This document shows, piece after piece, positions 39,560 to 48,228 of a stretch of DNA of 48,368 bases. The translations under genes were made by a program, and so were the position numbers. This DNA is from Bacteroidales bacterium (lineage in GTDB: Bacteria; Bacteroidota; Bacteroidia; Bacteroidales; UBA932). Each line of letters opens with the position of its first letter. Position 1 is the first letter of the stretch. Below the pieces are notes generated by a model that saw only the letters and a program-made list of their open reading frames with translations, had not been told where the DNA came from and searched no databases. The stretch is taken from positions 1 to 48,368 of the forward strand of contig JAGAKH010000094.1 in assembly GCA_017625725.1 (NCBI GenBank). Reading direction: 5' to 3'.

Positions 39560-42500
39560 TCAGAAAGTGAAACTTAAGCCTCCTGAAATCGTGCGGACAG
39601 GAGAGTTCATTGAAGAACTGGTTGCTCCGGTCAAAGACTGACGAGGGTCAAGTCCCTGTCTTCCAGACCAGTACCAAACGTTATCACATGCAAGGTAGAC
39701 CCTTACGCTTCTCACCTTGATCTTCTCTGTAAGATTCACAGGTACGGTGTAACCGAACTGAACATTCTGGATATTCAGGTAGCTTGCATCAACAAGGAAC
39801 CTGTCAGATGATGCGGCTGAATCCGTGTCAAGATAGAAATGTCTCGGATAGTCAGAATCAGGATTGGATGGAGACCAGGCCTTGAAGACATCCTTATGGT
39901 AATTGGAACCTGTCGAAGCAGAAGGTGCCGAAAGAAGGGATGCATATCCCGAATCATAAGCAAGTCCTCCGATCGAATAAGTCAATGCTATAGAGAAGTC
40001 GAAACCTTTGTATCTGAGGTTCGTTCCGAATCCGCCATAAAGGTCCGGAGTAGGATTACCGCAGAGATAATTGGTAGATTCAGAGTATTTCGTAGTCTTC
40101 TCCCGACCGGTCACATTTCCGTTCTCATCAGTAATATCCTTCCAGTACTGAGCCATACCGTTTGTCTTGTCTACTCCGGCATACTGCTTCATATAGAACG
40201 TATAGATCGGGAGTCCTTCTCCATAGAAAGAAGAACCTGATGCATAACCGGCATGTCCCTCGACAACCGAAGTCTTGTTCTTTTCAGGTATATAGATGAT
40301 CTTGTTCTTATAATGGGTTGCGTTGAAATAAACGCTCCAGTTGAAATCCCTGGTGTTGATGATGTTTCCGGTGACAGTAAGTTCGACACCTGAGTTTCTC
40401 ATATCTCCGATGTTGTCCCAATATCCGCCATAACCGGAAGAAGAAGGCAGGTTGAAGAAGAACAGCATGTCGGAAGTCTTCCTGTAGAAGTACTCCAGAC
40501 TACCGATGATCCTCTGACCGAAGAACTCAAAATCAGCACCTATATTGAAGTTGGCATTGGTTTCCCATGTGATTTCCGGATTACCTTTTGCACCGAGCTG
40601 GACAGAAGGGCCACCATCATAGGATCCGACGGCAAATGTATCCAGATAAAGGTAAGATCCGATATTATCATTACCCTGCGATCCATATGATGCCTTGAGT
40701 TTAAGCATATCCACCCATGGAGCATTGAACCAAGACTCCTGATTTATGATCCAGCCTCCTCCGAGAGACCAGAAATTACCCCAGCGATGGTCAGGATGGA
40801 AGCGTGATGATGCATCTCTACGGAATGAACCACTGACGAAGATCTTGTTCCTGAAATCGTACTGGGCACGAAGGAAATATCCTTCATTGTTATACCAGTC
40901 GCTTGACGATGATGCATTCTGTCCGTCTGTAATGGCACCGTTGAGTTCAAGGTTATCCATTGAGAAGATACCTGTCTTAGAACCGCTCAACGAATAGTTT
41001 GTATTCCTGTAATACTCATGTCCGAGAAGGACGCTTACATTATGGTCGAAAGCAAAGGTTCTCTTCCAAGAGAGAAGCTGCTGGAGATTCAGATAAAGAG
41101 TACGTTTGTGAGCAAGTCCGATGGAACCGCCGGTGGCAGCAAACTGGCCATAATACGGATTCATTACATTTGTAGACCTTGCCTCATCAGTTCCTGTACC
41201 CACATTGAATGTGAACTTGAAATCCTTAAGGAATGTAATGTCGGCAAACGCTGTACCATTGAAGGAGTTTCCTTCAGAATAGCTGATGTTCGACATCAGT
41301 CCCTGCATAGGATTGGAGTTGGTCTGGAAAGGACGGAGAAGTCCACCGTTGGCATAGTTACCGAAGTCGTACATCTTATCTCCGCGGGCATCGACCTTGA
41401 TGTTTCCTTCTCCGTCACGGATATACATAGGATATATCGGAGCAATGCTGGAGATGTAGCCGAAGATGTTTCCTGTTGAAGCAGAACTTCCTTCATCAGA
41501 GTTTCCGCCGTAATTATAATTGTAATTGGTGTATGCCGCATTCGCTCCTATCTTGAGCCATTCCTTGGCCTGATAGTCTGCACGGAGTCTGGCAGTTATT
41601 CGTTCCTGATCTGAGCTTGAAATGATGGCCTGATTCTTCAGATAGCCGAACGACGCATATACAGATGCCTTCTCTGTGGTTCCTGAAACACTGAGATTAT
41701 ACTCCTGACGCAAAGTGTTCTTATAAGTTTCATCAGCCCAGTTGTCTGGTGTCACCCAGAAGTTCTCATCATTGTATGAATAGAGCTTACCCAAGGTAGC
41801 GGCCGGATTGAGTCTTCCGTTTGAACCGATGAGGAATTCTCCGGACGGAACCGTAAACACATTATAGCCCAGACCTCCGTTTCTTGAAGAACCTGTCAGA
41901 TTCGTATTTGCCTTTATATGGGCATCAGCTGGAGCAGTACCATTGAAGACATAGTAGTTGTACAGCGTAGCATAATGAGCCTCATAATACTGTCCCGGAT
42001 CAGTGATATAATCATACTCCTTCAAGGCCTTTGAATTCCATCCGAATTTGGCATCAAAGTTCACGACAGCCTCTCCATGCTTTGCCTTCTTGGTTGTGAT
42101 CATGATGACTCCGTTTGCTCCTCTTGCACCATAAAGGGCATTGGATGCAGCATCCTTAAGGACAGTCATAGACTCTATGTCAGAAGGGTTGATATTTTCG
42201 ATATTGCCGGAAAACGGCACGCCATCAACGATATAGAGAGGTGACGAACCAGCATTGATGGAGCTGACACCTCTGATCACGATCGATGGAGACGATCCGA
42301 TTGAACCTGAAGATGTAGTCATCTGGACTCCGGCCACCACTCCTTCAAGGGCTCTGGTTGCACTTGAAGACTGGACCTTGGAAATATCCGATGATTTTAC
42401 GACTGCTGCGGAACCCGTAAAGGCCTCCTTTGTCGATTCTCCGAAAGCTACGACAATCGTTTCCTCAAGCACCTGGGTATCAGGTGCAAGCTCAAGATTG

Positions 42501-42775
42501 ATCAGATTTCTCCCATCCACTGCGATTTCCTTGGTCTGGAAACCGATACAAGAGAAGATCAGGACACCGTCAGAAGGAATATCGATGGAATAATTACCAT
42601 CTATATCAGTATTTCCTCCTGTCATTGTCCCTTTCAGCTGAATTGAGGCAAAAGGCAGGGTCTCGCCATTAGATGCATCCTTGACTGTACCGGTGACTGT
42701 TATCACAGTCTGCGCAAAAGTCATTGCTGGCACTAATATCAAGGCGGCAATTAATAATAGCTTGATGTGTTTCAT
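39560..42775 (-). CDS. SusC/RagA-family TonB-linked outer-membrane transporter
   Basis: A 1071-residue TonB-dependent transporter. After a signal peptide (cleavage near residue 21, TFAQ), residues about 26-105 form the carboxypeptidase-regulatory-like domain (TVKDASNGETLPFASIQLKG onward). A TonB-box-like ETIVVAFGE follows, then the plug (IVIRGVSSINAGSSPLYIVD, the SusC signature) and a large 22-strand-type barrel ending in ISGGLSFTF with a C-terminal Phe, as expected for an outer-membrane protein. It is the first gene of the five-gene operon. No ECF sigma/anti-sigma pair or hybrid two-component regulator is adjacent. The substrate is probably peptides, given the subtilase downstream. Confidence 0.95.
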   Translation of the reverse strand: MKHIKLLLIAALILVPAMTFAQTVITVTGTVKDASNGETLPFASIQLKGTMTGGNTDIDGNYSIDIPSDGVLIFSCIGFQTKEIAVDGRNLINLELAPDTQVLEETIVVAFGESTKEAFTGSAAVVKSSDISKVQSSSATRALEGVVAGVQMTTSSGSIGSSPSIVIRGVSSINAGSSPLYIVDGVPFSGNIENINPSDIESMTVLKDAASNALYGARGANGVIMITTKKAKHGEAVVNFDAKFGWNSKALKEYDYITDPGQYYEAHYATLYNYYVFNGTAPADAHIKANTNLTGSSRNGGLGYNVFTVPSGEFLIGSNGRLNPAATLGKLYSYNDENFWVTPDNWADETYKNTLRQEYNLSVSGTTEKASVYASFGYLKNQAIISSSDQERITARLRADYQAKEWLKIGANAAYTNYNYNYGGNSDEGSSASTGNIFGYISSIAPIYPMYIRDGEGNIKVDARGDKMYDFGNYANGGLLRPFQTNSNPMQGLMSNISYSEGNSFNGTAFADITFLKDFKFTFNVGTGTDEARSTNVMNPYYGQFAATGGSIGLAHKRTLYLNLQQLLSWKRTFAFDHNVSVLLGHEYYRNTNYSLSGSKTGIFSMDNLELNGAITDGQNASSSSDWYNNEGYFLRAQYDFRNKIFVSGSFRRDASSRFHPDHRWGNFWSLGGGWIINQESWFNAPWVDMLKLKASYGSQGNDNIGSYLYLDTFAVGSYDGGPSVQLGAKGNPEITWETNANFNIGADFEFFGQRIIGSLEYFYRKTSDMLFFFNLPSSSGYGGYWDNIGDMRNSGVELTVTGNIINTRDFNWSVYFNATHYKNKIIYIPEKNKTSVVEGHAGYASGSSFYGEGLPIYTFYMKQYAGVDKTNGMAQYWKDITDENGNVTGREKTTKYSESTNYLCGNPTPDLYGGFGTNLRYKGFDFSIALTYSIGGLAYDSGYASLLSAPSASTGSNYHKDVFKAWSPSNPDSDYPRHFYLDTDSAASSDRFLVDASYLNIQNVQFGYTVPVNLTEKIKVRSVRVYLACDNVWYWSGRQGLDPRQSLTGATSSSMNSPVRTISGGLSFTF

Positions 42776-43036
42776 ATGGTATTTAATTGTTATTATTCAG
42801 ATTATGCTACATCTTTACGCAACTTGCAAAGATACAAATAATTATCTGATTTTCCACACCTTTCATCCAATATCCAATCTCAGCCGGTCAATCTATCTTC
42901 AGCAGGGCTGGAATATAGACACAGAACCGAGCAGCGCAAGGGCAGATAATTTTCACACATTACTTCTGATAACTATTTGTTTAATCCGTTTTGCAGTTTA
43001 TTGTAAGATTGTCTTGCAAGTGATATATATATTTTC
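42776..43036. other. Divergent spacer between susC and the thr leader
   Basis: This stretch of about 260 bp carries the susC promoter on its left and the thr promoter at its right edge. I saw no gene and no strong hairpin between them. Confidence 0.6.
42827..42834 (-). promoter_or_regulatory. Candidate -7 box of the susC operon
   Basis: TATCTTTG on the minus strand, about 51 nt upstream of the susC ATG, fits TAnnTTTG; the -33 box is not obvious. Confidence 0.5.
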
Positions 43037-43044
43037 TACATTTG
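43014..43044 (+). promoter_or_regulatory. Promoter of the thr leader and thrBC operon
   Basis: TTG at 43014-43016 followed after 20 nt by TACATTTG at 43037-43044 fits the Bacteroidota consensus. Transcription would begin around 43050, about 12 nt before the leader peptide start codon. Confidence 0.65.
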
Positions 43045-43062
43045 TAGCTCACGCATGAATCT

Positions 43063-43158
43063 ATGATGAACAGCCGTAACATAAATGCCACTTTCATCCT
43101 GACGGGAATCACCGCCACAGGCATTTACATTTTCGGCACAACCCCTTGGGGGTTATAG
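43063..43158 (+). CDS. Threonine/isoleucine-rich leader peptide (attenuator)
   Basis: A 31-codon ORF (start 43063, stop TAG at 43156-43158) with 6 Thr and 5 Ile codons; residues 9-19 read ATFILTGITAT, and it ends in GTTPWGL. This resembles in composition the thr operon leader of enterobacteria, where ribosome speed through Thr and Ile codons decides whether transcription continues. The promoter lies just upstream and a hairpin plus T-rich tract lies at its end, followed 129 nt later by thrB. An antiterminator pairing was not identified by eye. Assignment is by position and composition, without homology evidence. Confidence 0.7.
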   Translation: MMNSRNINATFILTGITATGIYIFGTTPWGL

Positions 43159-43168
43159 TTTCTTTTTT
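43140..43168 (+). terminator. Attenuator terminator before thrB
   Basis: AACCCC (43140-43145), a TTG loop, and GGGGTT (43149-43154) form a 6-bp perfect stem with four G-C pairs. ATAG and then TTTCTTTTTT follow to 43168. It overlaps the last codons of the leader ORF, so ribosome progress would affect its folding. A flanking CGGCA (43134) and TGCCG (43168) could form a competing stem. Confidence 0.65.
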
Positions 43169-43296
43169 GCCGACACAGGTATATTTCATAACATCGTCCG
43201 CCAAGGCTGCAGACATCGGCACAGACTTCTCAACAAGACAATGAATACGAACTTCCGACAGGGTATGGTATATCCTGCGGTCAAACAGATAATGAC

Positions 43297-44280
43297 ATGG
43301 ACTCAAGATTCAATTCTCAAGACAGAAGTATACTGTCTGATTCAGACAATGTTAAACACATAAGGGCGTTTGCTCCTGCAACAGTCGCAAACATGGGTTG
43401 CGGATTCGACATTATGGGAATGACTTTAGACGGTGTCGGTGATATAGTATCCGTATATGTAAAAGACGGAGACGGCATGAGCATCAGGAACGAGAGTGAT
43501 GCGGAACTCCCTGAAGACATGGAAAAGAATGTCATAACCCCGGCTCTGAGAGCTATGATCAAGGCATATGGAAGCCCTATACAGGTAGATGTGGTGATAG
43601 AAAAGAAGATTGCTCCAGGAAGCGGCATCGGTTCGAGTGCAGCATCAAGTGCTGCAGCTGTATTTGCACTTAACGAAGCTCTTGGCCGCCCTTTCTTTCC
43701 TGAAGAACTTGTTGAATTTGCGATGGAAGGAGAGAAGCTCATAAGCGGAGGAACACCTCACGCAGACAATGCAGCTCCGGCAATTCTGGGAGGTGTGGTA
43801 CTGATGAGAGGATATGAACCTCTTGATATAGTCAGGCTTCCTGTTCTGGAACAGTTCTGCTGTTCGGTAGTCCACCCTGCAATAATGGTCAGCACAAAAA
43901 TGGCAAGAGAGGTCCTTCCTAAGGAAATCCCGTTAAGACTTGCCGTAAAGCAATGGGGAAATGTAGGCGGTCTGGTTGCCGGCCTTGCCCTTGGAGATGT
44001 AAACCTGATAGGAAGGGCAATGTGCGATGTGGTTGTAGAACCGCACAGAAAACGCTTCATACCAGGATTTGATGCTCTTCGCGAAAAAGTACTGGCAGAG
44101 GGGGCTCTGGCAATGAACATCTCAGGTGCAGGGCCTTCTGTGTTTGCCCTTTCATCGGACATGGAGACAGCTGCCGCTGTTGGAGAAGTAATGCGAAGAC
44201 ATTTCGAGGAAATGGACATTGCATGTGATGTCTATGTAGAGAACATTTCGAATATCGGAGCAAGGGTCATTCACGGATAG
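43297..44280 (+). CDS. thrB: Homoserine kinase (GHMP family)
   Basis: ThrB, 327 residues, phosphorylates homoserine, the penultimate step to threonine. The GHMP kinase signatures are RAFAPATVANMGCGFDIMG at the N-terminus, the ATP loop PGSGIGSSAASSAAA (residues about 108-122) and, near the C-terminus, NISGAGPSVFAL. About 20 extra N-terminal residues precede the conserved domain; no better start is seen downstream, so 43297 is kept. It is followed after 10 nt by thrC. The aspartokinase/homoserine dehydrogenase gene thrA is not adjacent. Expression is probably controlled by the leader upstream. Confidence 0.95.
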   Translation: MDSRFNSQDRSILSDSDNVKHIRAFAPATVANMGCGFDIMGMTLDGVGDIVSVYVKDGDGMSIRNESDAELPEDMEKNVITPALRAMIKAYGSPIQVDVVIEKKIAPGSGIGSSAASSAAAVFALNEALGRPFFPEELVEFAMEGEKLISGGTPHADNAAPAILGGVVLMRGYEPLDIVRLPVLEQFCCSVVHPAIMVSTKMAREVLPKEIPLRLAVKQWGNVGGLVAGLALGDVNLIGRAMCDVVVEPHRKRFIPGFDALREKVLAEGALAMNISGAGPSVFALSSDMETAAAVGEVMRRHFEEMDIACDVYVENISNIGARVIHG

Positions 44281-44290
44281 GGGGAAGGAT

Positions 44291-45577
44291 ATGAAATTCT
44301 ACAGCACAAGAGATAAAGACAGGCAGCATGCGGCAAGCCTGAAGGATGCCGCATCCGAGGGTCTGGCACCGGACGGAGGGCTTTATATGCCGGAAAGTAT
44401 TCCACAAGTGGATATGGCGGAAGTGGAAAGGCTGGCCGGAATATCATATTCCGGCATGGCAGCATATCTGGCAAAGACGATATTCAGCGAAATCCCAGAA
44501 TACGAGATTGAGAGGATTACGGCTGAGGCATATGATTTTCCCGTCACCCTTAGGGAAATCGGAGACGGACTGCATACCCTTGAGCTTTTTCATGGACCTA
44601 CATTCGCCTTCAAGGATTTTGGAGCCAGGTTCATGGGAAGGATGATGGGGCTGCTGAATGAAGGAGAAGACCTCACGATTCTCACGGCCACATCCGGAGA
44701 CACAGGAAGTGCAGTGGCACACGGCTTTTATGGAGTCGAAGGGGTAAAAGTAGTCATCCTATACCCAGCCGGGAAGGTCAGTCCTCTGCAAGAGGCCCAG
44801 ATGACGACCTTGGGCAGGAACATTACAGCCATAAAGATAGACGGCAGCTTTGACGACTGCCAGAGACTGGTCAAGTCGATGTTCAACGACACGGATCTCC
44901 GAAGCAGGAAACGGATAACCTCAGCCAACTCGATCAACATTCTGAGGTGGATTCCACAGTCTTTCTATTATTTCTACGGCTACTGCATGTGGAAAAGGAT
45001 GACAGGGAAAGACATGCCTGAGATTGCCGTTCCAAGCGGAAACTATGGAAACCTGGCCGGAGGAATGCTGGCAGCAAGGATGGGGCTCCCTATAAAGGGA
45101 TTCGTGGCGGCATCCAACGCCAACGATGTCATTCCGGAATACCTTCAGACAGGAATCTATCGTCCAAGACCTTCGGTAAGGACAGTTGCAAACGCAATGG
45201 ACGTAGGGGCACCGAGCAACTATGAAAGGATGATGGCCATGTGCGGAGATTCTTTGGACGATCTGAGACATGAAGTCAGAGGATTCTCGTGCAGTGATGA
45301 TGAGATAAGGGGAGCTATTGCAGAAATCCATGACAGATATGGTTATCTTTCCGATCCTCATAGTGCAGTGGGATATCTTGCAACAAGACAGCTGGGCGTA
45401 GAAGGATTCTGGCTGTCAACCGCCCATGCGGCAAAATTCAAGGAAGTTACCGAAAGTGCAACCGGACAGGAAGCTCAACTGCCACCTGCATTCATAGACA
45501 TGATGTCAAAAGAAAAGTTCTTCTGCAGGATGTCCGCGGAAGAAGATGCACTCAAGGAGTATCTGCTGAAAATATAA
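44291..45577 (+). CDS. thrC: Threonine synthase
   Basis: ThrC, 428 residues, is a PLP enzyme converting O-phosphohomoserine to threonine. The N-terminal motif is LAPDGGLYMPE; PLP binds Lys108 in PTFAFKDFGARF; LTATSGDTGSAVAHGF and the phosphate-loop region VPSGNYGNLAGG complete the site. It is the class I, longer bacterial form. A strong Shine-Dalgarno-like GGGGGAAGGA precedes the ATG, which is unusual in Bacteroidota. The stop codon lies inside the left arm of a 20-bp terminator hairpin. Confidence 0.96.
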   Translation: MKFYSTRDKDRQHAASLKDAASEGLAPDGGLYMPESIPQVDMAEVERLAGISYSGMAAYLAKTIFSEIPEYEIERITAEAYDFPVTLREIGDGLHTLELFHGPTFAFKDFGARFMGRMMGLLNEGEDLTILTATSGDTGSAVAHGFYGVEGVKVVILYPAGKVSPLQEAQMTTLGRNITAIKIDGSFDDCQRLVKSMFNDTDLRSRKRITSANSINILRWIPQSFYYFYGYCMWKRMTGKDMPEIAVPSGNYGNLAGGMLAARMGLPIKGFVAASNANDVIPEYLQTGIYRPRPSVRTVANAMDVGAPSNYERMMAMCGDSLDDLRHEVRGFSCSDDEIRGAIAEIHDRYGYLSDPHSAVGYLATRQLGVEGFWLSTAHAAKFKEVTESATGQEAQLPPAFIDMMSKEKFFCRMSAEEDALKEYLLKI

Positions 45578-45618
45578 ACAATCAGGCCTGCTGTCAAAAG
45601 CAGGCCTGATTGTTTATA
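45573..45618. terminator. 20-bp bidirectional terminator between thrC and the acyl-CoA ligase
   Basis: Perfect 20-bp inverted repeat (45573-45592 and 45599-45618) with a 6-nt loop. The arms include the stop codons of both convergent genes (TAA of thrC at 45575-45577, and the TAA of the ligase at 45614-45616), and A/T-rich arm ends can supply T-tracts for each strand. Confidence 0.85.
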
Positions 45619-47524
45619 GAGATGCGAGGTTCTTCTTGTTTACGATGTTCTTTCCCTCTGGAGTGTATGCATATTCCATATTCTCCTTATATGCCTCTTC
45701 AACTCTTCCCCTTACTACCTTCATCGAACTGTTAAGGAAGTGGTTCTGTTCCGTCCAAGGCTCAGGAAGCACACATACTGCTGCCGGAAGCCATCTCTCA
45801 GGGAAAGCACCGAAAAGTCGGCCGCCCTTTCTATAGCAATTGACTTCGTCCTGGAGCTTTTCAAGCATCTTGACCTTGGCATCGTGTGTCGACGGATCGA
45901 GTCCGAGATCCTTTACATATGCCTTCAGGGCCTCCTTGTTCGGAGTCACGAGGGCGATGGTGTAAGGGTCCTGACTGTTATGAAGGATCGCTCCGTCAAT
46001 GAACTTGGAGTTCTCGACCAGATTCTCCTCAATTCCTTCAGGTGAATACTTTTCTCCGTCTGCAGCGATGAGAAGTGACTTGAAGCGACCTACGACATAG
46101 AGCATTTCCTCGTCACGCATATATCCCATGTCACCGGTATGAAGCCATCCGTCAACTATAGTCGAAGCAGTGGACTTCGGATTCTTCCAATAACCAGCCA
46201 TGACATTTTCACCCTTGATGCATATCTCACCCTTTACTCCGAAAGGCTGTTCCACGCCATCTGCATCAAGAATCTTGATCTCCATCGGCTGAACCACCTT
46301 TCCTGACGAACCGAAAATATGCTTTGCAGGAGAGTTTGCTGAAATGATAGGGGTAGCCTCCGAGAGGCCATAACCCTGATACATCGGGATGCCGATCGCA
46401 TAGTAATATCTCTGAAGATCGATGTCAAGAAGGGCACCGCCGCCGACAAAGAACTTCATCTGGCCGCCGAGACCTTCTCTTACCTTCTTGAAGATGATCT
46501 TGTCAAAAAGAAGCATGAGAGGCTTGCGGAAGATATCCACGAACTGTGTTCCCTTGTTATATCCCTCCTTGTTATAGGCAATGGCATTCTTGAGAGCGAA
46601 GTTATAAAGCTTCTCCACAACAGGGCCGCTCTTTGAAATCGTGGTCTCGATATTCTTCTTGAAACTCTTTGCAAGAGTAGGGACCGAGAGCATCACATTA
46701 GGCTTGAACTCCTTGATGCTGACTGGAATGTTTCTCAATGCCTCCTTTCCGCTCTTGCCTGAAGGAACCATTCCGAGAGATGCACCATATGACATCATGG
46801 TGTAGAAACCTGCAACATGGGCAAAACAGTGGTCAAGCGGCAGGATTATGAGCATCTTGTCCTCCGGGGTCACTCCGATGACGGAATGTGCCTGCTCGAC
46901 ATTGGCCGTATAGTTTCTGTGAGTCAAGAGGATTCCTTTAGGATCCGCTGTAGTTCCTGAAGTGTAGCTGATGTTTGCATAGTCATCCGGACCTATGGAA
47001 GAATATCTCTGGATGAACATATCTTCATGCTCCGCAAGGAACTTGTCTCCCATCTCGATGACATCTCCTATGAAGATCTCATTCTCCCTGATGTCATCGA
47101 TCCTGTCGAAAATGATGACCTTCTCCACCATAGGGCAATCAGGAAGGATTGTTCTTATCTTAGGGAGCTGGAACTTCGATGTAATCACATATTTTGAATC
47201 GGAATGTCTGACACGGAATACCAGGTCGTTGGTCTCTCCCAGCTTTATGGAAAGAGGAACATTCACAGCTCCGGCATAAAGGACTCCAAGTTCTCCGATA
47301 ATCCACATGTCGCGGCCTTCACTAAGATATGATATCTTCTCTCCTTTCTGGACTCCAAGGGCCATCAATCCGGCTGCTATCCTCTTTGCCTTGGAAAGTG
47401 TCTCCTTATAAGTGGTAGGCTCCCATACTCCGGAATCAAGATTCTTCTCCCATAGGAAAGGATTCTCGGGATACTCGCCCACATACTTCTCCACAAAGTC
47501 AATGATTGTCAGTCTTTCTGCCAT
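45614..47524 (-). CDS. Long-chain fatty-acid-CoA ligase family (AMP-forming)
   Basis: A 636-residue AMP-binding enzyme of the long-chain acyl-CoA synthetase type, which activates fatty acids through an acyl-adenylate to acyl-CoA. Core motifs are ISYTSGTTADPKGILLTH near residue 187 (P-loop), YQGYGLSEATP near 385, and DGWLHTGDMGY near 455, followed by the hinge VGRFKSLL and a conserved Lys near the C-terminus. There is no signal peptide. The gene starts 12 nt after the deoxynucleoside kinase gene and is cotranscribed with it. The acyl substrate cannot be read from sequence; medium- or long-chain acids are likely. Confidence 0.92.
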   Translation of the reverse strand: MAERLTIIDFVEKYVGEYPENPFLWEKNLDSGVWEPTTYKETLSKAKRIAAGLMALGVQKGEKISYLSEGRDMWIIGELGVLYAGAVNVPLSIKLGETNDLVFRVRHSDSKYVITSKFQLPKIRTILPDCPMVEKVIIFDRIDDIRENEIFIGDVIEMGDKFLAEHEDMFIQRYSSIGPDDYANISYTSGTTADPKGILLTHRNYTANVEQAHSVIGVTPEDKMLIILPLDHCFAHVAGFYTMMSYGASLGMVPSGKSGKEALRNIPVSIKEFKPNVMLSVPTLAKSFKKNIETTISKSGPVVEKLYNFALKNAIAYNKEGYNKGTQFVDIFRKPLMLLFDKIIFKKVREGLGGQMKFFVGGGALLDIDLQRYYYAIGIPMYQGYGLSEATPIISANSPAKHIFGSSGKVVQPMEIKILDADGVEQPFGVKGEICIKGENVMAGYWKNPKSTASTIVDGWLHTGDMGYMRDEEMLYVVGRFKSLLIAADGEKYSPEGIEENLVENSKFIDGAILHNSQDPYTIALVTPNKEALKAYVKDLGLDPSTHDAKVKMLEKLQDEVNCYRKGGRLFGAFPERWLPAAVCVLPEPWTEQNHFLNSSMKVVRGRVEEAYKENMEYAYTPEGKNIVNKKNLASL

Positions 47525-47535
47525 AATAATTCCTT

Positions 47536-48159
47536 TTAGTCATTATTCTTGAACAAGCCGAAGAGTTCGGCATCAATCTTATCAGTCACCTCCTGAAAAT
47601 CCTCAGGACGGTTCTCGAACTTGATCCTGTCCACATCAAGAATCAGAAGATTATGCTTATAATCCTTGATCCAGTTCTCATAACGCTCGTTCAATCCGGT
47701 TATATAATCTATTCGAATGCTCTTTTCATATTCTCTTCCTCTCTTCTGGATCTGTCCTATAAGATTCGGAATGGATGACCTGAGATAGATGAGAAGATCC
47801 GGTGGATTTACCAGAGACATCATAAGATCAAAAAGATCGGAATAATTTTCATAATCCCTTGTGCTCATCAGGCCCATTCCATGCAGGTTCGGTGCGAATA
47901 TTCTTGCATCCTCATAGATTGTCCTGTCCTGGATGATTACCGCATCTTCCTTAGAAATATCAACTACATCCTTGAAACGCTTATTAAGAAAATATACCTG
48001 AAGATTGAATGACCATCTTTCCATATCCTCATAAAAATCAGCAAGATAAGGATTATAATCAACAGATTCGAACTTCGGGGTCCATCCATAATGGGCAGCG
48101 AGCATCTTGGTGAGAGTCGTTTTTCCGCTACCGATATTACCGGCAATTGCTATATGCAT
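47536..48159 (-). CDS. Deoxynucleoside kinase
   Basis: The start at 48159 (MHIAIAGNIGSGKTTL) gives 207 residues and places the P-loop GNIGSGKTT at the N-terminus, as in the family; the in-frame ATG at 48246 would add 29 residues unlike it. Further signatures are VIIQDRTIYEDA (the DRxxYED motif), PPDLLIYLR and a lid region with RGREYEKSIR. Such enzymes (dAK/dGK/dCK-like) phosphorylate deoxynucleosides in salvage. Which base is used cannot be decided by eye. It is the first gene of a two-gene minus-strand unit. Confidence 0.92.
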   Translation of the reverse strand: MHIAIAGNIGSGKTTLTKMLAAHYGWTPKFESVDYNPYLADFYEDMERWSFNLQVYFLNKRFKDVVDISKEDAVIIQDRTIYEDARIFAPNLHGMGLMSTRDYENYSDLFDLMMSLVNPPDLLIYLRSSIPNLIGQIQKRGREYEKSIRIDYITGLNERYENWIKDYKHNLLILDVDRIKFENRPEDFQEVTDKIDAELFGLFKNND

Positions 48160-48228
48160 AATGGTTATATTTTTTATACTACAACTTGGTAAATTTAATA
48201 ACTCTTTTCGTATTTTTGTAAAAATAAA

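Follow-up and report, generated by a model that had tools for sequence, protein, structure and literature searches.

Threonine/isoleucine-rich leader with a codon-embedded hairpin upstream of thrBC in a Bacteroidales bacterium: a probable attenuator of new layout

In the window, by which we mean the whole stretch of 48,368 nucleotides analyzed here, the genes thrB and thrC are preceded by what is probably a ribosome-mediated, Thr/Ile-responsive leader-peptide attenuator with a new layout, in which a hairpin of the form ACC-CCN-NGG-GG is built from the terminal codons of the leader open reading frame (ORF) and the stop codon lies in the loop or close behind. Comparison, at a level far above chance, has confirmed that the arrangement of promoter, Thr/Ile ORF, hairpin, T-rich tract, and thrB-thrC is real. 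The sensing side of this reading is well supported by the sequences compared, and a leader that senses Thr and Ile is highly probable; direct occlusion of the hairpin by the ribosome is a possible mechanism to which we give somewhat less than even chances. The elements concerned, together with a structured RNA further downstream, are as follows.

43014..43044, + strand: promoter of the Bacteroidota type, read from the sequence (TTG at 43014-43016, N20, TACATTTG at 43037-43044)
43063..43158, + strand: leader ORF of 31 codons with 6 Thr and 5 Ile (peptide MMNSRNINATFILTGITATGIYIFGTTPWGL; stop codon TAG at 43156-43158)
43140..43154, + strand: hairpin 1, AACCCC-TTG-GGGGTT (6 bp, -7.1 kcal/mol), recurring in 29 thrB loci
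43159..43168, + strand: T-rich tract TTTCTTTTTT, beginning 4 nt 3' of the hairpin 1 stem
43169..43173, + strand: 5' strand of helix P1, GCCGA (columns 29-33 of alignment A1)
43196..43214, + strand: hairpin P3 with loop CAAGGCT at 43202-43208 (A1 columns 66-84; one C-A mismatch in the window stem)
43216..43220, + strand: 3' strand of helix P1, TCGGC (A1 columns 87-91; covariation)
43297..44280, + strand: thrB, homoserine kinase (NCBIfam equivalog TIGR00191 and NF002288; Pfam GHMP kinase; start as listed by the ORF tool)
44291..45577, + strand: thrC, threonine synthase (NCBIfam TIGR00260)

All of the elements named in a preliminary description of this DNA, from the promoter through the 31-codon Thr/Ile ORF, the 6-bp hairpin, and the T-rich tract to thrB, were located in the sequence in that order. 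The hairpin, which had been placed at the end of the ORF, is indeed present; it lies inside the last codons, and the T tract follows only after the 4-nt gap. It is formed by the ORF's own terminal codons ACA ACC CCT TGG GGG TTA TAG (Thr-Thr-Pro-Trp-Gly-Leu), its 5' edge is the ACC codon, and the control codons overlap the hairpin. The promoter, TTG-N20-TACATTTG, is one that we take to be of the Bacteroidota type, and an exact TAnnTTTG occurs no more than 300 nt 5' of the hairpin in 23 of 29 thrB leaders. Among the 332 ATG-initiated ORFs of 20-60 amino acids in the window, the leader ORF is the sole one so rich in Thr and in Thr plus Ile. Taken by itself, the terminator-like site is no more than chance would give in the window (1 found versus 0.7 ± 0.8 in shuffles) and the fold of the window leader is unremarkable (z -1.4; 17 of 200 shuffles equally good), so that the case for a leader rests on comparison and conservation and not on folding energy. 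These same two values are what would favor a chance meeting of a Thr-rich ORF and a hairpin, but the recurrence of the arrangement before thrA and thrB, its fixed reading frame, and the synonymous change within it all speak against such a coincidence, which is extremely improbable and is held to be refuted by the comparison. The window leader is among the weaker ones, with 5 Thr or Ile in its last nine codons.

The thrB loci used for comparison came from a search of relatives (21 matches in 20 of 61 genomes, our own included) and from the contigs of named genomes (the best 80 of 90 loci). The 102 loci comprised 42 with thrA in the stretch taken, two that lacked upstream sequence, one duplicate of the window, and 57 that were usable. 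A CCCC-n-GGGG hairpin closing a Thr-rich ORF was found before thrB in 29 of these 57 loci without adjacent thrA, the set being collected by the bare hairpin pattern; examples of the encoded peptides are MLNLHNISTILATTTIGANTSFVITITTTTTTTITPMGV (locus L028) and ...TVCGTTTTTTTTTTTPWGL (L035). The other 28 usable loci have no such leader and include other arrangements: in L042 and L043 thrB seems, by eye, to stand directly behind its promoter, while in two genus mates, L006 and L008, a Thr-rich leader is combined with a separate inverted repeat. Judged from these loci, the presence of the embedded-hairpin leader before thrB is lineage-dependent. Relatives with the hairpin and promoter but no conserved Thr/Ile codons, which the preliminary description had named as evidence that would count against a leader, were not encountered among those compared.

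The attachment to thrB rather than thrA, which had also been remarked upon, is true of the window; it is a trait of the lineage, however, as relatives carry the leader before thrA, in Flavobacteriia, in other Bacteroidales, and in a family belonging to another class. Among the 28 thrA-thrB loci looked at (28 of the 42; L014 was mis-anchored), 16 have the leader 5' of thrA, and all of these are in records named Flavobacteriia, e.g., Aquimarina, Maribacter, and Lutibacter. A class-wide search detected thrA at E 1e-120 in 25 of 119 genomes, our own included. Six of the 24 others carry the embedded-hairpin leader (L200, L202, L205, L208, L209, and L211), about five (L210, L214, L215, L217, and L222) have a Thr-rich leader with a separate repeat, as judged by eye and without folding, and no Thr leader was seen in the remaining genomes of the 24. 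The phylum thus holds two layouts of thr leader, one with a separate repeat and one with a codon-embedded hairpin. A pattern search across the phylum found the pattern in 68 of 345 genomes, and 20 places were fetched. Eleven of them belong to a family of another class, f142 (perhaps Balneolaceae, with about 40 f142 genomes in all), and all eleven have thrA downstream; the other nine, one of which (L198) is also from f142, gave no match to thrA, thrB, or thrC within the 2.5 kb fetched. The ORF of the f142 leaders ends in (I/T)TP and its TAG stop lies inside the loop of ACCCCTTAGGGGGT, although this set carries a selection bias, having been chosen by a pattern with AYN before ACC. Across the order, a model termed R1 matched 13 of 393 genomes at E 0.01; besides G000, the matches L107, L108, L110, L112, and L116 were kept as leaders, L112 having only two Thr or Ile in its last nine codons, yet being located before thrA. 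The R1 matches L109, L111, L113, L114, L115, L117, and L118 were not kept as leaders.

In all, 67 leaders were compared (66 besides that of the window), of which 63 are distinct; the most Thr/Ile-rich hairpin per locus was kept for the comparison, which is a selection bias. Numbering codons back from the ACC of the hairpin, the combined share of Thr and Ile is 0.76 at -4, 0.73 at -3, 0.83 at -2, and 0.89 at -1, the last value being somewhat inflated because the set was partly selected by pattern or by Thr/Ile content and codon 0 is ACC by construction. At codons -12 to -24 the share is 0.15-0.33 (61 of the 63 distinct leaders were counted at -10 to 0, and 51-60 further out). All four Thr codons are in use at -9 to -1 (ACA 87, ACC 85, ACG 41, and ACT 87). 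The reading frame was examined at 340 hairpin-like sites in 2.07 Mb (both strands) of collected loci: 70 of the 71 Thr/Ile-rich matches with a nearby stop have ACC in frame and the other two frames yielded 0 and 1, with the qualification that ACC itself supplies frame 0 with one Thr. Known leaders account for 64 of the 70 in-frame matches, some being counted twice, and six lie elsewhere (L118, L203, L123 twice, L130, and L196). In 21 close pairs, which overlap one another, 66 of 180 codon differences are synonymous in frame versus 32 of 179 and 36 of 182 off frame. The stop codon is found at +6, +12, +15, or +18 from the first A of the hairpin in 63 of the 67 leaders. Comparison of these sequences shows that selection acts on the Thr/Ile-rich leader ORF as a peptide, close to the hairpin, and that the terminal Thr codons of the ORF make up the 5' arm of a hairpin that recurs. 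The proposal of a Thr/Ile leader peptide 5' of a threonine operon is therefore upheld by codons that recur in many lineages and by synonymous change in close pairs, and the leader has what generally marks a leader-peptide attenuator, namely an ORF that is rich in codons for the end product, lies 5' of the operon, and is selected as a peptide.

Counted strictly, as at least 6 T in 8 nt starting 0-4 nt after the last G, a U-tract follows hairpin 1 in eight of the 63 distinct leaders (the window leader counting 5), and with a lenient start of 0-8 nt in 19 of the 63 (the window leader counting 7); the window tract passes the lenient count only, and 44 of the 63 leaders are without a U-tract even by that count. 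By group, 12 of the 25 distinct thrB leaders of Bacteroidales have the lenient tract, but none of the 11 from f142. The same genome possesses a good intrinsic terminator in its ilvD leader (L248, contig C113), where a long stem and TTATTTTTTT come after MNFRLVNNVASSKLGIAILGVVVVSIIIDM, and by contrast hairpin 1 would be at best a weak intrinsic terminator. The ORF of L248 ends approximately 164 nt 5' of the ilvD match and is Ile/Leu/Val-rich, so that it looks like a classical branched-chain leader. Classical-looking his leaders lie 5' of hisG in other families of the phylum (L151, L153, L155, L163, L165, L167, and L169). In these seven the terminators are separate and carry T runs of 5 to 9, and those that were compared also have complementary leader segments.

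The missing U-tracts are in keeping with a reading in which hairpin 1 is a pause or Rho-related signal and Rho ends transcription further down, in the untranslated stretch before thrA or thrB, which we consider unlikely. A block rich in T and A, with C at nt 16-18, recurs behind hairpin 1 (at about 43165-43170 in the window, 13-18 nt behind the hairpin), and CATATC is found behind the hairpin in all 11 f142 leaders. Over the 80 nt that follow the f142 hairpin the sequence is also C-rich and G-poor (C 0.25, G 0.09), with the f142 his leaders similar by eye, and all of these features would suit Rho or pausing; in the Bacteroidales thrB group, however, C behind the hairpin is not above G (0.23 and 0.25), and the lenient U-tracts in about half of the distinct leaders of that group likewise count against this reading. 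In the His-rich his leaders of f142 (L150, L157, L160, L161, and L175, i.e., five of the five f142 hisG loci) the last codons form a small hairpin that has the stop in its loop or adjacent to it, and a long stretch with few G follows, which suggests that the embedded-hairpin layout may extend beyond Thr. Upstream of ilvD, loci L225, L226, L230, and L232 have Ile/Leu/Val-rich leader ORFs and then a recurring segment resembling GTCAATCCC or GTCAACCCC.

No antiterminator had been found by eye in the preliminary description, and folding and comparison of the leaders did not reveal a conserved one either: RNAalifold predicts no conserved helix upstream of hairpin 1 in the f142 set or in 14 of the 27 thrB leaders. 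Folds in this region are common nonetheless. For the 100 nt 5' of hairpin 1, z averages -1.64 across 29 leaders relative to dinucleotide shuffles in which coding is ignored, and ranges from -4.9 (L028) to +2.0 (L064), with L023 at -4.0, L059 at -3.4, and the window at -1.4. Hairpins within the ORF (e.g., in L023, L028, L025, and L059) vary by lineage and stand outside the consensus fold, and the window itself folds an 8-bp stem upstream of hairpin 1. Such an upstream fold could possibly act as a pause hairpin or as a partner in a fold switch. Leader segments complementary to the 5' strand of P1, termed P0, pair with their own P1 strand better (mean -9.26) than with permuted partners (-8.29; 3 of 5000 permutations as good), in a permutation that ignores kinship.

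That upstream folds within the ORF are common makes the attenuator explanation less sure, and lends weight to a switch between two RNA folds, in which ribosome position would decide whether an upstream in-ORF hairpin forms, or whether P0 or the 3' strand of P1 pairs with the 5' strand of P1. We regard this switch as rather improbable. The many relatives with P0 segments that outperform permuted pairs, the common upstream folds (including the 8-bp stem of the window), and the existence in the phylum of Thr leaders with separate inverted repeats (L006, L008, and the five more seen by eye) would be expected of it, but P0 has no conserved position (its distance from the hairpin runs from 1 to 121 nt), pairing is weak in several rows, the permutation takes no account of kinship, and the consensus predictions contain no conserved helix 5' of hairpin 1. 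Pairing of P0 with the P1 5' strand was not adopted as an antiterminator, given the lack of a conserved position, and is kept within the two-fold alternative.

In the enterobacterial thr leader (thrL; Rfam Thr_leader), which senses charged tRNA-Thr and tRNA-Ile, the control codons, antiterminator, and terminator are separate segments. The leader described here resembles thrL in having a Thr/Ile-rich peptide before a threonine operon, and sensing of the same tRNAs would be expected; unlike thrL, its hairpin is inside the ORF, a conserved antiterminator was not found, the U-tract is often absent, and thrB can be the first gene. The whole window likewise has no Rfam match at the gathering score. 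The assertion that this is the same logic as the enterobacterial leader consequently has to be given up, with the hairpin made from terminal codons, no conserved antiterminator among the leaders compared, and a U-tract in eight or 19 of 63. With hairpin 1 within the ORF, the leader also departs from the classical picture of a terminator with a U-tract 3' of the ORF. A parallel exists in E. coli pyrBI, where translation of the leader reaches the attenuator hairpin and a nearby ribosome prevents it from forming, although pyrBI senses UTP via polymerase pausing and not tRNA charging.

The mechanism that we favor runs along similar lines. When Thr-tRNA or Ile-tRNA is short, the ribosome would halt at the last Thr/Ile codons, cover the 5' arm, and so block hairpin 1, and RNA polymerase would continue into thrB. 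With charged tRNAs available, it would instead reach the stop codon in or near the hairpin and the ribosome would depart, hairpin 1 would form, and transcription would be shortened or held. A separate antiterminator would be unnecessary under direct occlusion. In the window, hairpin 1 and the T-rich tract may constitute a weak intrinsic terminator, while relatives that lack the U-tract would need another output, such as pausing that depends on the hairpin, Rho, or an influence on translation. For a ribosome at a stop codon, coverage of as much as 12 nt downstream has been given (PMC4833913), so that one halted with its A site at the last Thr codons would overlie the 5' arm, a geometry which suggests that hairpin formation may depend on ribosome position. 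Direct occlusion would account for the fixed frame and for the crowding of Thr and Ile at the hairpin. On the other hand, Thr codons as many as 11 before the hairpin would be too distant, an early stall would leave the hairpin free, and occlusion explains neither the missing U-tracts, the upstream folds, nor the junction described below. Tight coupling of ribosome and polymerase could reverse the sign of control.

Precedents for hairpins of this kind are to be found in the ilvB leaders of actinobacteria, where runs of control codons overlap candidate terminator hairpins in the leader ORFs and, in the portion of that paper compared, the mode of action is left open (Seliverstov and others, 2005; PMC1262725). 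The same portion describes codon substitutions in the Streptomyces coelicolor ilvB leader as without effect (PMC1262725). The shared feature is the overlap of control codons and hairpin; the actinobacterial leaders differ, as far as that portion goes, in their Ile/Val/Leu codons, in the poly-U that follows their hairpins, and in belonging to another phylum. Attenuation usually requires the terminator to lie outside the stretch covered by the ribosome, according to the text compared (PMC4833913), and a codon-embedded hairpin departs from this rule. Closer to the present genome, strong clues for leader-peptide attenuation before amino-acid operons have been presented for Flavobacterium psychrophilum, a member of the same phylum, with no operon or hairpin layout named in the text compared (PMC9723704), and leader-like small ORFs have been described in Bacteroides thetaiotaomicron (PMC7366714). 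In a 2010 paper, the authors stated that, apart from ermC, leader-peptide systems were known to them only from Proteobacteria and Actinobacteria until their own case in Firmicutes (PMC2965389). A description of a thr leader of Bacteroidota was not recognized in searches of the open-licence PMC literature, which is no proof of absence.

Bacteroidota are a major phylum of the gut and sea, and to our knowledge the control of their amino-acid synthesis is poorly described. The leader provides this phylum with a concrete and testable candidate for a threonine sensor, and raises the question of how a leader-peptide attenuator could operate with no evident antiterminator and often with no U-tract. 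It also bears on whether ribosome and polymerase are coupled in this phylum, since control by direct occlusion could have one sign if the coupling is tight and the other if it is loose. As a tentative generalization, clearly short of even chances, the leaders could represent a phylum-wide class of antiterminator-free attenuators in which the control codons are the 5' arm of the hairpin, the stop falls within the loop or shortly after it, ribosome occupancy alone is the switch, and the output is non-intrinsic in most lineages, with Bacteroidales adding a new covarying RNA junction, with a conserved CNAGG loop, that participates in control.

This junction, a structured RNA behind hairpin 1 that the preliminary description did not mention, emerged from alignment A1 of 27 thrB leaders (L059 and L060, with no clear P3, were excluded). 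Helix P1 encloses a variable part and the hairpin P3, whose loop reads C-N-A-G-G-Y-N; the loop C and AGG are present in 27 of 29 thrB leaders, AGG being the anchor used for finding P3. In some leaders the variable part folds as a hairpin, P2, which makes the junction three-way; L031, L033, L052, and L057 have almost none of this part. Pairing, with hairpin 1 included, holds in 93.9% of cells versus 32.6-58.5% in slid versions, and the cells changed on both sides number 63, compared with 19.5 in shuffles and no more than 22 when the pairing is slid. Two weaker measures gave 9 pairs with change on both sides versus 7.1 (22 of 500 shuffles as high) and 20 further pair types versus 18.8 (152 of 500 as high). 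Hairpin 1 is invariant across the alignment and gives no covariation; as rows were chosen by CCCC-n-GGGG, the only positions of it not fixed by that choice are the flanking A and T, which are invariant in 27 of 27. On the thrB tree, P1 and P3 show 22 pair-keeping changes on both sides versus 0-5 in slid versions, along with six one-sided changes and 14 to unpaired states. By comparison, then, a covarying two- or three-way junction with a CNAGG loop is shown behind hairpin 1 in the Bacteroidales thrB group, and is a candidate for a new family of structured RNA. Three sub-threshold Rfam hits near the leader (to E 10), to two snoRNA families and nrdJ, were taken as chance. Pairing of the P3 loop with hairpin 1 holds, by eye, in a few leaders only and was dropped, as was mimicry of the tRNA-Thr anticodon by the loop, for which there was no consistent fit by eye.

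The strong covariation and the near-constant loop would be expected if the junction were the main regulator, binding a ligand, tRNA, or protein, with the leader peptide merely keeping the region translated. This we judge very unlikely: outside the Bacteroidales thrB group the junction was recognized, by eye, at L107 alone, the prediction for f142 is a simple second hairpin, and the Thr/Ile leader is the more widely conserved of the two. Locus L107 (genome G142), which belongs to another family, shows, by eye, the same P3 and a P1, and lies before a weak amino-acid-kinase-like ORF (Pfam E 0.00034, below the cut-off). Under the favored attenuator model, P1 would form only in RNA that is already past hairpin 1.

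Several observations concern the genes themselves and their surroundings. The listed start of thrB lies 17 residues before the point at which similarity to most relatives begins (about residue 18), and by eye there is no nearer in-frame ATG, GTG, or TTG at 43297-43350 of the window. The same genome has its thrA on a different contig, next to genes judged by eye to be metX-like and metB-like, and the stretch upstream of thrA is without a leader of this kind. Misbinning of the contig was considered and found no support; the ligase adjoining thrC matches those of genus mates at 53-89%. The best of these matches (89%) is at L256 of genome G007, which has SusC-like and ligase flanks in common with 42000-48176 of the window; no thrA, thrB, or thrC match was found within the 12 kb taken there, and other genes occupy the interval. 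From this comparison of sequences, thrBC has been gained or lost at this place between the window and L256.
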